Origin: a virus
DNA length: 20,266 nucleotides
IMG/VR virus record: IMGVR_UViG_3300009505_000091
Span: 1 to 20,266 of that record
Reading direction: 5' to 3' (one strand)
Below the pieces are notes generated by a model. The model was not told where the DNA came from. It was given only the letters and a program-made list of their open reading frames with translations, and did no database searches. Shown in pieces: positions 13,795 to 20,266 of this stretch. Each line of letters starts with the position of its first letter. Positions within the stretch are counted from its first letter, which is position 1. Both the position numbers and the translations under genes were made by a program.

Positions 13795-15858
13795 ATGGCA
13801 AACATAACCACATCTATCACGCTTGCCATCGTTGGCAGCGGTGGAAACATTTCAGGACAGAACATTTACGGCTCTGAAACAATCAGCGTTACTGTAACGA
13901 CCCCTGCTGGCCATGGGAGCTGGACAGCCAGTGAGTTTAGTAGTGCCATTTCTCTGTCTCCTTCATCCGGAGCTTCAGGCTCCACTTGTGTTATTACTGC
14001 TCACGCTTCAAATACTGGCTCATTTAGTGCTTCATTCCTGTCCTCCAGTAGCTCAGGCGAAGTTACTGCTACTGGTGCTGTTTCAGGTTCTGTGTTAGCG
14101 AGTGTAAACGGAACAGTTCCCTCTGGTATCACTCTCTCTTATCAATCAGATGGTGAAGTCGTTGGAAGACATATCAAAGCCCTCGCATCCGGGGGTACGG
14201 GTACTCTCCAAGTCTCTGGTGATAACGTGACGTGGCAGACTAATGGATTTTGGTTTTACAGAAACCGAGGAAGCTCTCCTGTCTTCTACGCAAGGTCTCT
14301 CGGAATAGGGTCAGGGGCAACTCCAAGTGCGTCTTTGGGGCCGGTAGCTAATGGTCAAGTACCTTATCTGCCGCCTTCAACAGCATCAGGTAGCCTTGGT
14401 GGCCCTTATAATGTTTTATTTTCTCACGGAACAACATACACGTTCCCAAGCCCCGGTGTTCCTACCGGACACAACTTCAGTATTAGCTTCAACACGATAA
14501 ACTCAACAACGGTACCTTTACCTGCCGCAGCGGGTACTTACACGTTCTCTTTATATACTAAAAGACAAGTAGCGTATGGTGGAGATAACTCAACGTGGTC
14601 AAGCGGATACGCCTCTACGACAGTTACAAGAGCCGCAGAACCTACTACGGTTTCACCTCCTACTTCTATCACTTTCAATCCTTCAAATACTTTGAGTGCT
14701 ACAACAAACGTAGTCCTCACTGCGTCAGGAGGTACAGCTGGCGGTACTTTGAACGTTGGTATCTCAGACTACGCAGCGTCTCCAAGGACACTCAGTTTGA
14801 CCAGAGGAACCACCTATACAGCTTCTGCTTATAGAGAGCTTGGAGGGACAAATAGCTCTACTATCTCTCAATCATACACAGTGCCTTATCTACCAAATAG
14901 CTTTGGTGATTTATCTATTGGCACCACAGTATCGAATACTACTATAACAAGCACTACTACCACTCAGACAGCCGTGGTCACCAATGGCAACGCTAACACT
15001 CAATACCGCCTTATCAAAAACGGTACGTGGATAAGCACACATAACTATGGCTCCACACCTTTCCAGATACCTACGGCACATTTGCCCACGGCAGGGAACA
15101 CCCAAGTCTATAGCGTTGAAGGCAGGTTATTAGTATCGTCAGGAGGTGATGGAACTACGTGGTCTTCTACAGGCCATACGTTTAGCATCACACACACTTC
15201 CGCTACTTCTGGCCCTAATGCTTTCGACCTTGGCTCGGATGGTGTAGGTGTCCCTCTCTCTACTCTTATTTACTCTGACCTAACCCCTACAATAACAGGG
15301 ATGGTTAGCCCTACTTCTCATACAGTAACAGCGTCTGGAGCAGGATCGCCTGAAGTAAGTGTGGCAGGAGGCGCTTACGCTACATCAGCGACAGTGACAA
15401 ACAACCAGACAGTCAGTCTTCGTTTTAGTTCCTCTAATACTTATAACACTGCTAACACGGCGACACTGACTATCAATGGTGTGTCCGATTCAGTAACAGC
15501 AACTACTATGGTCGATCCCGGCACAGGTGGTAGTACTGGTACAACTGGCTCTAATGCTTATGGTTTAGAAGTAAGGAACAGCAGTGGCACTGTGATCTTC
15601 GGGCCTGATTTTAGGTCAGGAAGAGCTATCAACTCTGGCACTTGGAGTGCCGCAGCAAATAGTAGTTCAATATCATATACTGTTGAAGGTATGACAGCGA
15701 GTAACAGAGATACCATCGGTGTCCTCCTTGCTGTAACTACTGCTGGAGCCGCTGCCGCAGGGTTCTCACTGACAATACAATACGGTGCTGGTTCTTTCTA
15801 CATTCAGAATAACAGTAGCACTGCTTATACTGGCAACTTTTTAGCTTTGAGGTATTAA
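13795..15858 (+). CDS. Modular, Ser/Thr/Gly-rich tail fibre or tip protein with C-terminal YGL domain
   Basis: A 687-residue protein rich in S, T and G, beta-stranded throughout, with no signal peptide, membrane segment or catalytic motif. AAGGAG (13783-13788) marks the start. It appears to be a string of Ig-like or related beta modules. Three copies of a S/G-G-D-N/G-x-T-W turn occur at residues ~142, 263 and 451, and two VPYLP linkers at ~189 and ~363. The last ~100 residues form a separate domain beginning NAYGLEVRNSSGTVIFGPDFRSG (YGL at 589) and ending TGNFLALRY, preceded by a G/T/S-rich linker (DPGTGGSTGTTGS). This domain resembles parts of the next gene. A role as a side fibre or tip appendage is inferred from composition, modularity and position after the gpJ-like gene. 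I cannot name a family. Confidence 0.7.
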   Translation: MANITTSITLAIVGSGGNISGQNIYGSETISVTVTTPAGHGSWTASEFSSAISLSPSSGASGSTCVITAHASNTGSFSASFLSSSSSGEVTATGAVSGSVLASVNGTVPSGITLSYQSDGEVVGRHIKALASGGTGTLQVSGDNVTWQTNGFWFYRNRGSSPVFYARSLGIGSGATPSASLGPVANGQVPYLPPSTASGSLGGPYNVLFSHGTTYTFPSPGVPTGHNFSISFNTINSTTVPLPAAAGTYTFSLYTKRQVAYGGDNSTWSSGYASTTVTRAAEPTTVSPPTSITFNPSNTLSATTNVVLTASGGTAGGTLNVGISDYAASPRTLSLTRGTTYTASAYRELGGTNSSTISQSYTVPYLPNSFGDLSIGTTVSNTTITSTTTTQTAVVTNGNANTQYRLIKNGTWISTHNYGSTPFQIPTAHLPTAGNTQVYSVEGRLLVSSGGDGTTWSSTGHTFSITHTSATSGPNAFDLGSDGVGVPLSTLIYSDLTPTITGMVSPTSHTVTASGAGSPEVSVAGGAYATSATVTNNQTVSLRFSSSNTYNTANTATLTINGVSDSVTATTMVDPGTGGSTGTTGSNAYGLEVRNSSGTVIFGPDFRSGRAINSGTWSAAANSSSISYTVEGMTASNRDTIGVLLAVTTAGAAAAGFSLTIQYGAGSFYIQNNSSTAYTGNFLALRY

Positions 15859-17041: not shown

Positions 17042-17521
17042 ATGGCACGCTCAACAAGCACCAGTTCAGGAAGATCACGAATAACAGCGCCTACCAGAGA
17101 TGTCCTAACGGATGATGGTACCGCTTTAATCTCGCTAGTAAAAGGCGAACAAATACAAATAGAGTTCACAGCAGCTTGGATGACCAGCCTGTTAGGAGCT
17201 ACGATTACTGCTAAGGTAGTGGAAGGAGACAACGATGTGTTAGGTACTAAACCTACACACGAAGCTCACCACGGTAGTCAACAATCAGCTATCATAACCA
17301 CATTGGAAGTGATCGATGAAATACCTACAGACAACGTTTTTAAAATAGTCTTTCCCGAAACACTAATAGCAACTTGGTCTACTGCCCCTCTTCCTAATCT
17401 CCCTGTATATGGCTTCTTTGGCATAGAGATAGCAGATGTGGGTGTTGGATCTGCTCAACAAATATGGAAGCCCGTTCGTGGCTTAGTAGAAGTTCTATAC
17501 AGCCCCACGGAGGCAACCTAA
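17042..17521 (+). CDS. Ig-like tail protein, BppU-like linker (unassigned)
   Basis: A 159-residue protein with AGGAG (17029-17033) before the ATG. The N-terminal ~20 residues are basic and S/T-rich. A beta-sandwich-like body follows: LVKGEQIQIEFTAAWMTSLLGATITAKVVEGDN, a helix/turn, DNVFKIVFPETLIATW, VYGFFGIEIADVG, and a last strand GLVEVLYSP. This order (a G-x-x-I-x-I-E-F strand, an A-T-I-T-A-K-V strand, a later F-G-I-E-I strand, and a final G-L-V-E-V strand) is like the Ig-like domain of upper-baseplate (BppU N-terminal) and similar fibre-anchoring proteins. It is coupled to the downstream fibre by a TAATG overlap, which suggests the two proteins work together, perhaps as anchor and fibre. 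The family call is tentative. Confidence 0.55.
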   Translation: MARSTSTSSGRSRITAPTRDVLTDDGTALISLVKGEQIQIEFTAAWMTSLLGATITAKVVEGDNDVLGTKPTHEAHHGSQQSAIITTLEVIDEIPTDNVFKIVFPETLIATWSTAPLPNLPVYGFFGIEIADVGVGSAQQIWKPVRGLVEVLYSPTEAT

Positions 17522-20266
17522 TGTCATATACTATCGATCTAAATAACCCCAAGTACAATGTTAGCCTCTCACGAGTAGGCGCACAAGGTGCCAAGGGTAC
17601 ATCCGTGTCCAACGTTGTTATCGATGAAAACGATGCACTGATGGTCACTCTTGTAGATGGTGCTGGTGTCGTTACTGAAACGATTAATGCTGGCACTATC
17701 GTAGGTGTAGCTCCTGCTGACTTGACTGTCTTGTCTCACTGGACATTTGACCCTGTTAATCGAAAACTGATCTCAGACGTTGCTATTGAAACAACCCTGA
17801 ACTCTATCTACTTGGGTGAGCAGCACAAGATGTCTTCTGGTTCAGAGAACATCTACTTCACTAACTTAACCAGCGACATAAACTTCTTCCCTATGTGGGG
17901 TGGACTAAAAGACCAGAGCATTACTGTTAACCGTGATGCCACAGGTTTCATACCTCCAAGCGGACGAATATACTCAGATATGTTCTCCTTGCCTCTCGGT
18001 GGACAACCAAACCCTTTGACATCAACAGGCTATGCTGGTGATAACTACTTCGGTATCAACATCGCTGGACTAGGTATTACGACTGTTGCGGCAGAGCAAG
18101 TCAATGAAGACGTTCGTCTTGAATACCGTATTACTATTGCTGGCAATCAGGTGTATATGCAAGAGCTGCCTCGAAATGCTTTACGTTCGTCAGCTGCTTC
18201 CATTATCTACCCGAATGATGTTATCGAATGGTTCTTTGACCACCCTGTCGATGTTAGAGCAGGTACTACTTTGTTCGCAGAGATACACAAAGTACGTAAA
18301 AGCGATGATGTCGATTTAGGTATCTTCCAAGTTCGACAAGGTGACACAGTAGATCCTAACACTGGATTGTACAGATACCAAGCAACAGTTCACAATAGAT
18401 TGTTCGAAGACAAAGATATCGAACTGATCTCCCCTTACCTCAAGTATAAGGCGATGGACTTCAGTGCAGATAGCACTGGTGGTGTCATCCTCCTTAAAGA
18501 CTTAACATTGGCAGCAGGAACAGAACTTCTTATTCCTCACCCTGTTAACACGCTTCAAGCGATAGCTAATGGTACTGAGATACAGATCAAAGCTAAAGGT
18601 GGAGCAAAAGTAATCATCGAGTCTCTCCCAGTAACCGGCGTGAGCATCGGCGGTGTTCTTGTAAACTCTGTCTTGAACCTTGCTGTAACAGAACTAAACA
18701 ACTTATTCACTAACACTCTCAGCTTTGCTTCACAAGGGAACCCTGTAAACAGCTTTGCCCTTAGTGGCAACAACCTAACTCTTGGTTTAACTGACGGTAC
18801 TTCTTACACAGTAGATGTTACTACATTAGGTGTAGATACTGACAACTTCGTATCCAGCGCTGCCTTGAACGGTTCTGATCTGGTTCTTACGATGGACGAT
18901 GCTACTCTTGTCACTGTTGATGCTACAACTCTCCTCCTTGACGAGAATGATGTAGTCCAAAGCGGTACGCTAGTTGGTGATGACTTAGTACTAACCTTGA
19001 GCAACAGCCAAACAGTTACTATTGACGTAACAGCATTGGGCTTAAGCAGTAACGCCACAGTGGTTAGTGGTGCGATGAATAATGATAACATAACCCTCGA
19101 TCTGACTATGAGCGATGGCTCCATAATCGGGATAGACGTAGCTAACTTAGTAGTCGATCCTAACACACACGTAAACTTCGGTAATGTTGTGGGTAACTCT
19201 TTAATCATGTCTCTTACTGACGGTTCTAGTGTTACTGTCGATGTATCTACTCTCAACCTCGATTCTAACGATTACGTGGTTAGCGGTGGCCTTAATGCTG
19301 ACGGTATAAACATCGATCTAGTATTGAACAACGGTACTACGATCCAGTTGCCAGTAGCAGGTTTGGCTGTTGATAACGACACGGTAATCACAGGTGGCAC
19401 AGTCTTAGGTACTGACTTACGTCTTACCCTTAGCACTGGCTCTATCATCATTGTTGACGCAACTGATTTCACCATTGACACTGATACCACGATTACCAGC
19501 GGTGCTATGAATGCTGACGGTGTTAACATCGATCTGACCATGAGCGATGCGACTGTAGTTCAGATACCCGTAGCAGCCTTAGCAGTTGATACTAACACTG
19601 TGGTTTCTAGTGGCCTAGTTAACGGCACAGATCTAGAACTCACACTTAGCAACGGCACAGTTATTGTTATTGATGCAACAGCTTTCACCTTGGCAGCGAG
19701 TGTCACCGTTGTTAGCGGTGCTATGAATGCTGACGGTATTAACCTTGATTTAACTATGAGCGATGCTACCACAATACAGGTAGATGTAAGTGACTTAGCC
19801 CTCGACACAAACACTGTTATTTCTAGCGGTGCTGTTGTAGGTACAGACATCCAGCTTACTCTTAGCTCAGGTGTTGTTGTTTCTGTAGATGCAACTTCTT
19901 TGTTGTTAGACACTAATGACTTTGTGGCCAGCGGTGCTATGAATGCTGACGGTGTTAACATCGATCTCACGATGGACAGCGGTACTGTCATACAGATAGC
20001 GGTAGGTGATTTAGCACTCGACACTAACAACTTTGTGGCTAGCGGTGCTGTTGTAGGTACTGACTTAGTCCTTACGATGAGTGATGCTACTACGATTACT
20101 ATTGATGCTACAACCTTGGCTACTGGATCAAGTACACAAGTGGCCAGCGGTGCTGTTGTAGGTACTGACTTAATCCTTACGATGAGCGATGCTACTACGA
20201 TTACTATTGATGCCTTGAATATGGTCAATGGTTCTACGATGACTGCTACAAATGACGACTGGTACA
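17521..20266 (+). CDS. Giant repeat tail fibre/adhesin (partial, runs off the window)
   Basis: The frame is open from the ATG at 17521, which shares one base with the previous stop (TAATG), to the last base. That gives at least 915 residues with no stop. Residues ~1-62 are a likely anchor: NPKYNVSLSRVGAQGAKGTS, a short collagen-like element common at fibre N-termini, then one degenerate copy of the repeat (NVVIDENDALMVTLVDGAGV). Residues ~63-410 form a beta-rich region without a recognised family (HWTFDPVNRKLISDVAIE, FFPMWGGLKDQSITVN, YFGINIAGLGITTV, ELISPYLKYKAMDF). From residue 411 at least 14 tandem units of 34-37 residues follow, consensus like S-G-A-x-x-G-T-D-L-x-L-T-x-S-D-x-T-x-x-x-x-D-A-T-x-L-x-x-D-T-N. 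They probably build a long trimeric beta shaft. A host-binding tip would lie beyond the window. Confidence 0.85.
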   Translation, partial: MSYTIDLNNPKYNVSLSRVGAQGAKGTSVSNVVIDENDALMVTLVDGAGVVTETINAGTIVGVAPADLTVLSHWTFDPVNRKLISDVAIETTLNSIYLGEQHKMSSGSENIYFTNLTSDINFFPMWGGLKDQSITVNRDATGFIPPSGRIYSDMFSLPLGGQPNPLTSTGYAGDNYFGINIAGLGITTVAAEQVNEDVRLEYRITIAGNQVYMQELPRNALRSSAASIIYPNDVIEWFFDHPVDVRAGTTLFAEIHKVRKSDDVDLGIFQVRQGDTVDPNTGLYRYQATVHNRLFEDKDIELISPYLKYKAMDFSADSTGGVILLKDLTLAAGTELLIPHPVNTLQAIANGTEIQIKAKGGAKVIIESLPVTGVSIGGVLVNSVLNLAVTELNNLFTNTLSFASQGNPVNSFALSGNNLTLGLTDGTSYTVDVTTLGVDTDNFVSSAALNGSDLVLTMDDATLVTVDATTLLLDENDVVQSGTLVGDDLVLTLSNSQTVTIDVTALGLSSNATVVSGAMNNDNITLDLTMSDGSIIGIDVANLVVDPNTHVNFGNVVGNSLIMSLTDGSSVTVDVSTLNLDSNDYVVSGGLNADGINIDLVLNNGTTIQLPVAGLAVDNDTVITGGTVLGTDLRLTLSTGSIIIVDATDFTIDTDTTITSGAMNADGVNIDLTMSDATVVQIPVAALAVDTNTVVSSGLVNGTDLELTLSNGTVIVIDATAFTLAASVTVVSGAMNADGINLDLTMSDATTIQVDVSDLALDTNTVISSGAVVGTDIQLTLSSGVVVSVDATSLLLDTNDFVASGAMNADGVNIDLTMDSGTVIQIAVGDLALDTNNFVASGAVVGTDLVLTMSDATTITIDATTLATGSSTQVASGAVVGTDLILTMSDATTITIDALNMVNGSTMTATNDDWY
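18751..20266 (+). repeat. Tandem beta-repeat array, at least 14 units, mostly alternating 35/37 residues
   Basis: Unit starts are at 18751, 18853, 18958, 19063, 19174, 19279, 19390, 19495, 19606, 19711, 19822, 19927, 20038 and 20143. From the third to the twelfth unit, lengths alternate strictly between 105 nt (type A, like SGAVVGTDLxLTLS) and 111 nt (type B, SGAMNADGxNIDLTM), a 216-nt two-unit period. Type B units 8 and 12 share 38 identical bases from AGCGGTGCTATGAATGC onwards. The last two units are both type A and almost identical. The array continues or ends beyond the window. Confidence 0.9.
20038..20214 (+). repeat. Recent tandem duplication of one fibre repeat unit
   Basis: The 72 nt from 20038 and the 72 nt from 20143 differ at four positions by direct comparison (GCT/GCC, GTC/ATC, AGT/AGC, GCT/GCC), with only one amino-acid change (V to I). 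The copies are exactly 105 nt apart. This is far closer than any other pair of units in the array, pointing to a recent duplication or to conversion. Confidence 0.88.

Follow-up and report, generated by a model that had tools for sequence, protein, structure and literature searches.

The last gene of the window (the whole stretch of DNA analysed, an IMG/VR virus record of 20,266 bases) raises the question of why a fibre shaft should be built from units of 35 and 37 residues in alternation, and whether this alternation reflects how the shaft grows, how it folds, or both. The window contains part of a tail module. One ORF, of 2127 residues, has the size of a tape-measure gene; other genes encode a distal-tail-like protein, a J-like tail-tip protein that includes a collagen-like stretch and a tail assembly chaperone-type protein, and the fibre gene stands last. 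This placement in the virion structural module, after the tape-measure-sized, distal-tail, J-like and chaperone-type genes, is that of a phage fibre gene. Between the J-like gene and the fibre module, positions 13795–15858 encode a 687-residue Ser/Thr/Gly-rich protein with no Pfam match and a very weak PHROGs match. The parts of the fibre gene that flank its repeats are as follows.

17521..20266, plus strand: fibre gene, cut by the contig end; 915 residues present (ORF list and translation)
17731..18660, plus strand: conserved N-terminal fibre domain, end approximate; 58–84% identity to dozens of IMG/VR loci
18664..18708, plus strand: alpha helix shortly before the array; AlphaFold2 helix, residues 44–58 of the window model and 40–66 of the model of relative L008
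20245..20266, plus strand: first residues past the array, ATNDDWY; relatives continue ATNDSWFISYG...

An alternative in-frame ATG lies upstream at 17464. The ORF is still open at the contig end, so that the C-terminus is missing; array-bearing relatives that close with a stop codon have 951–1447 residues. Complete relatives in IMG/VR share one order: a variable N-terminus or anchor, a conserved domain of about 340 residues, a helix, the repeat array, a conserved end motif NMINGST and a C-terminal region with a lectin-like Laminin_G_3 domain. Some 350–720 residues follow the array in these relatives, in which an elongated repeat region is thus followed by a C-terminal binding domain (Laminin_G_3), the part that is cut off in the window. 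Because the window array ends with a motif common to the array ends of relatives, it is complete, with only the C-terminal part of the gene missing, and it is the longest array found in the family. The gene product, an attachment fibre of a marine virus, is a phage fibre of a known kind, a phage beta-repeat fibre; its noteworthy part is an even-number rule.

The array consists of 14 tandem units at 18745–20244, in the frame of the ORF opening at 17521. Units 4, 6, 8, 10 and 12 have 37 residues and all others 35.

18745..18849, plus strand: unit 1 (35 aa), start-type; both halves match position 1 of relatives
18850..18954, plus strand: unit 2 (35 aa); both halves match position 2 of relatives
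18955..19059, plus strand: unit 3 (35 aa); matches position 3 of relatives
19060..19170, plus strand: unit 4 (37 aa); groups with unit 4 of L008 (support 96)
19171..19275, plus strand: unit 5 (35 aa); groups with unit 3 of relatives
19276..19386, plus strand: unit 6 (37 aa); unit-4 type
19387..19491, plus strand: unit 7 (35 aa); groups with the penultimate unit of relatives
19492..19602, plus strand: unit 8 (37 aa); unit-4 type, 40-base identical run with unit 12
19603..19707, plus strand: unit 9 (35 aa); groups with penultimate-type units
19708..19818, plus strand: unit 10 (37 aa); unit-4 type
19819..19923, plus strand: unit 11 (35 aa); groups with penultimate-type units
19924..20034, plus strand: unit 12 (37 aa); unit-4 type
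20035..20139, plus strand: unit 13 (35 aa), penultimate-type linker, core shared with unit 14 by copying in one direction or the other; 96% identity between the two over 74 nt
20140..20244, plus strand: unit 14 (35 aa), last-type, carries the end motif NMVNGST; second half matches the last unit of relatives

The unit-to-unit spacings (35, 35, 35, 37, 35, 37, 35, 37, 35, 37, 35, 37 and 35 residues) confirm the strict 35/37 alternation that had been described, here from unit 3 to unit 13. The 216-nt two-unit period of the original prediction was recovered as well, with a DNA identity of 0.527 at a shift of 216 and 0.530 at 432, compared to at most 0.347 in 1000 codon shuffles. As had been claimed, units of like type are the most alike in DNA: identity between inner units is 0.57 at spacings of 2, 4 and 6 and 0.46–0.48 at odd spacings (p = 0.002, obtained by shuffling unit order). 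The identical stretch shared by units 8 and 12 is 40 bases long rather than the 38 given earlier. The alternation is broken by units 13 and 14, both of 35 residues; over 74 nt (window 20035–20213) they show 96% identity, the result of a recent exchange or copying between adjoining units. Half-unit profiles assign the first half of unit 13 to position 6 (last-type) and its second half to position 5 (penultimate-type). Taken with the near-identity to unit 14, these mixed halves indicate that neighbouring units can exchange sequence.

The origin of the array was evaluated with a tree of individual units, which are short sequences, so that most branches are weakly supported. Window units 4, 6, 8, 10 and 12 fall with unit 4 of L008 (support 96); unit 5 joins unit 3 of relatives, and units 7, 9, 11 and 13 lie close to their penultimate one. 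Half-unit profiles agree with the tree for most units, and the sequences indicate that units 4, 6, 8, 10 and 12 descend from one position. In L008 and the L022 group unit 4 already has 37 residues, its first hairpin being longer by two, and no other position there has this length; the 35/37 alternation itself is peculiar to the window. The simplest history would start from a six-unit plan, with the unit 4–5 block amplified to four copies and the unit 3–4 block duplicated once (6 + 6 + 2 = 14). Since the 37-residue unit 4 predates this amplification, the length alternation is a by-product of which block was copied. Growth by two-unit blocks, as first proposed, is thus well supported by positional matching, by the unit tree and by unit numbers that are always even across the family.

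The original prediction went further and proposed that short and long turns give the shaft a two-step structural period. This part was not supported as stated, as most relatives have inner units of 35 residues without any length alternation, and the 35/37 alternation was rejected as itself defining a structural period because relatives with the same shaft lack it. AlphaFold2 was run on the L008 array as a monomer, with an alignment of 14 sequences. The model contains a long helix before the array and three antiparallel strands in every unit (for example 71–77, 80–85 and 90–94), and in it unit 4 is lengthened at the loop joining strands 1 and 2, where its two additional residues fall, and is otherwise equivalent to the other units. 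The competing view, equivalent repeats with the extra residues in a disordered loop, was therefore matched as to the equivalence of the units and the position of the insert; the loop itself is not clearly disordered. The window model agrees with that of L008 where the alignment is deep and is poor in the amplified middle. Confidence is low throughout (mean pLDDT 56–58, pTM 0.21–0.22) and the monomer does not give the packing of units, so that each unit is only tentatively modelled as a three-stranded beta meander. The fibre is probably a homotrimer, with which the pre-array helix, a probable trimeric coiled coil, is compatible. WD40/BamB-like fold matches in the PDB (TM-scores near 0.1, rmsd above 17 Å) came from this weak model and were dismissed as meaningless.

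Array length was then compared among relatives. A single scan of viral contigs with the N-terminal domain as query returned 63 loci; later scans added to these, and many of the loci were repeats of the same contigs. Among the 65 distinct fibres with a readable array region, no odd unit number was found: 4 fibres have no units, 22 have two, 24 have four, 14 have six and the window has 14. Assembly collapse or expansion is an unlikely source of these figures, since the longest identical run found between units is 40 bases and the same counts recur in many independent contigs. On the tree of N-terminal domains, array size changes at least 20 times, always by even steps. With equal odds for odd and even steps, a run of 20 even ones would be expected about once in a million, but the changes may include whole-array exchange between phages, which would leave fewer, possibly few, independent even steps. 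The even-number rule is well observed, and the shaft seems to grow only in pairs of units; its cause may be structural selection, recombination register or a founder effect.

A two-unit sequence period also exists in the family beyond the length difference, although a modest one that is due in part to shared descent. Odd and even profiles built from the inner units of six-unit relatives, with insert columns removed, sorted window units 2–13 correctly in 12 of 12 cases and ranked the inner pair correctly in all 24 four-unit arrays; transfer of the signature between positions was moderate (10/14 and 13/14). A two-unit structural period is plausible but unproven, and could come from three strands per unit rather than from unit lengths.

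The structural explanation can be set out as follows. An anchor and the conserved N-terminal domain would fix the fibre to the particle, and a short helix, probably a coiled coil, would begin a shaft in which three-stranded beta meanders, each of about 35 residues, are stacked. The C-terminal region, known from relatives, would bind the host surface as a putative lectin. The number of units would set shaft length and change in steps of two, making the pair of units the working element. With an odd number of strands per unit, the chain may leave each unit turned relative to the next, its direction being restored every second unit, so that only an even number of units would return the distal part to register. 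The 37-residue units represent one even position, that of unit 4; two residues were added to its first hairpin, and the block was then amplified in the lineage of the window as the six-unit plan became 14. The shaft may in this way be quantised, a ruler that changes in module pairs because the receptor-binding end would be in register with the anchor only when the module number is even; we put this geometric step forward tentatively, as a possible cause that we favour without expecting it to prevail.

A serious rival, itself less likely than not, is that evenness is an effect of recombination: crossing over between same-type units two apart would keep counts even with no structural requirement. 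Array-size junctions often lie between even-type units, and short arrays have the look of recombinants between such units, which alone would yield even counts without a structural rule. In 17 of 19 cases, the second unit of a two-unit array has a start resembling unit 2 or 4 and an end resembling the last unit; in four-unit arrays unit 2 mostly starts like unit 2 and ends like unit 4; and window units of like parity share the longer identical runs. However, in six-unit relatives DNA similarity is 0.532 both between neighbours and between units two apart, so DNA similarity alone does not forbid odd steps there, yet odd arrays are not seen. Nor are they seen despite the exchange between neighbours recorded in window units 13 and 14. 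An improbable alternative is a founder effect, in which a few ancient arrays of two, four and six units spread by module exchange and evenness stems from a handful of events, partly by luck. The scatter of array sizes over the N-terminal-domain tree is what module exchange predicts, and the inner units of four- and six-unit arrays are recognisably the same positions; but the growth of the window array from the six-unit plan to 14 needs several further steps, again even, and fibres with no units as well as the divergent six-unit arrays of L062 and L139 also obey the rule. The reading we prefer, a probably trimeric fibre with a pair of units as its working element, a geometric cause of evenness and block amplification, has as a whole a probability of about one half.

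Searches of known families bear out the earlier statement, which could name no described fibre with this alternation, and gave the repeat no convincing match in Pfam, PHROGs, NCBIfam or the PDB: neither Pfam nor PHROGs gave a significant match within the array, and a profile search of the PDB found no solved structure for the repeat. The array of the window or of relatives gave no tblastn match to annotated phages even at E = 10, likely owing to low-complexity filtering, and a search for related loci with the array as query gave no matches. In BFVD, A0A516LTE7 (1146 aa, 40–52% identity) has the best support by sequence and is probably a relative. From 24 to 28 residues of single units match the C-terminal motif of the NCBIfam BapA prefix-like domain NF033677; L062 scores 38.1 bits against a cut-off of 35, and the window protein, at 31.6, falls below it. 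Identity with this domain was rejected, as the match extends over only 24–28 of the 64 model positions (28 for the window protein) and is set in a phage fibre, not in a secreted biofilm adhesin.

In the triple beta-spiral of the adenovirus fibre, two-strand repeats of about 15 residues stand between the anchor and the receptor-binding head, and their number sets fibre length; we know of no parity rule for such shafts. The present shaft likewise arrays short beta repeats between anchor and binding end, but its 35- and 37-residue repeats with three predicted strands do not fit the triple beta-spiral. The nearest studied analogue in kind is the T4 long tail fibre protein gp34, also a slender phage fibre of tandem structural repeats, described as a trimer with beta-prism domains (an antiparallel beta sheet per chain) and short tandem repeats with insertions of different length (PMC5537660). 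In contrast to the units described here, the repeats of gp34 include helices; its sequence showed no similarity to the present fibre, and the excerpted account of gp34 notes no even-number rule (PMC5537660). The BACON tandem repeats of crAss-like phages also belong to a phage protein whose domain repeats are discussed, in the portion of the account considered, as evolution hotspots (PMC6949934); BACON is a separate, named carbohydrate-binding domain, to which the present array has no Pfam match. Our non-exhaustive literature search found no phage fibres described as having an even repeat number.

The N-terminal domain reaches further than the array, with 26–39% identity to proteins of Vibrio phages and of an Oceanicoccus MAG contig. 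Vibrio phages PWH3a-P1, VP16T, S4-7, D164 and 234P9 have homologous N-terminal domains (26–38% identity), and the unit profile detected no 35-residue array in them. Several of these genes sit among head or head-closure genes, and not after a central tail-tip gene; the distant homologues L002–L007 (Vibrio phages and phage KZY1) lie mostly near head, head-closure or adaptor genes. Given these positions, the domain may serve to attach fibres at more than one site on the virion. Fibre N-termini differ among relatives (L008–L070), and that of L008 starts with a collagen-like stretch. The fibre of L062 (634–3786) carries a fused Phage_HCP head-completion domain (PF05521), which suggests a form anchored at the neck or head. 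Among bacterial genomes, the N-terminal domain has matches only in the MAG contigs L144 (JAAELM010000176.1) and L145 (JAAGZR010000385.1), labelled Oceanicoccus and Aliivibrio, a weak hint of gammaproteobacterial hosts.

Phage fibres must vary in length and in host-binding tips and yet still fold. If the shaft changes only in module pairs, this would expose a folding rule of beta fibres, with a possible use in the design of protein rods of set length. The natural series of 0, 2, 4, 6 and 14 units offers a means to test fibre length against adsorption.
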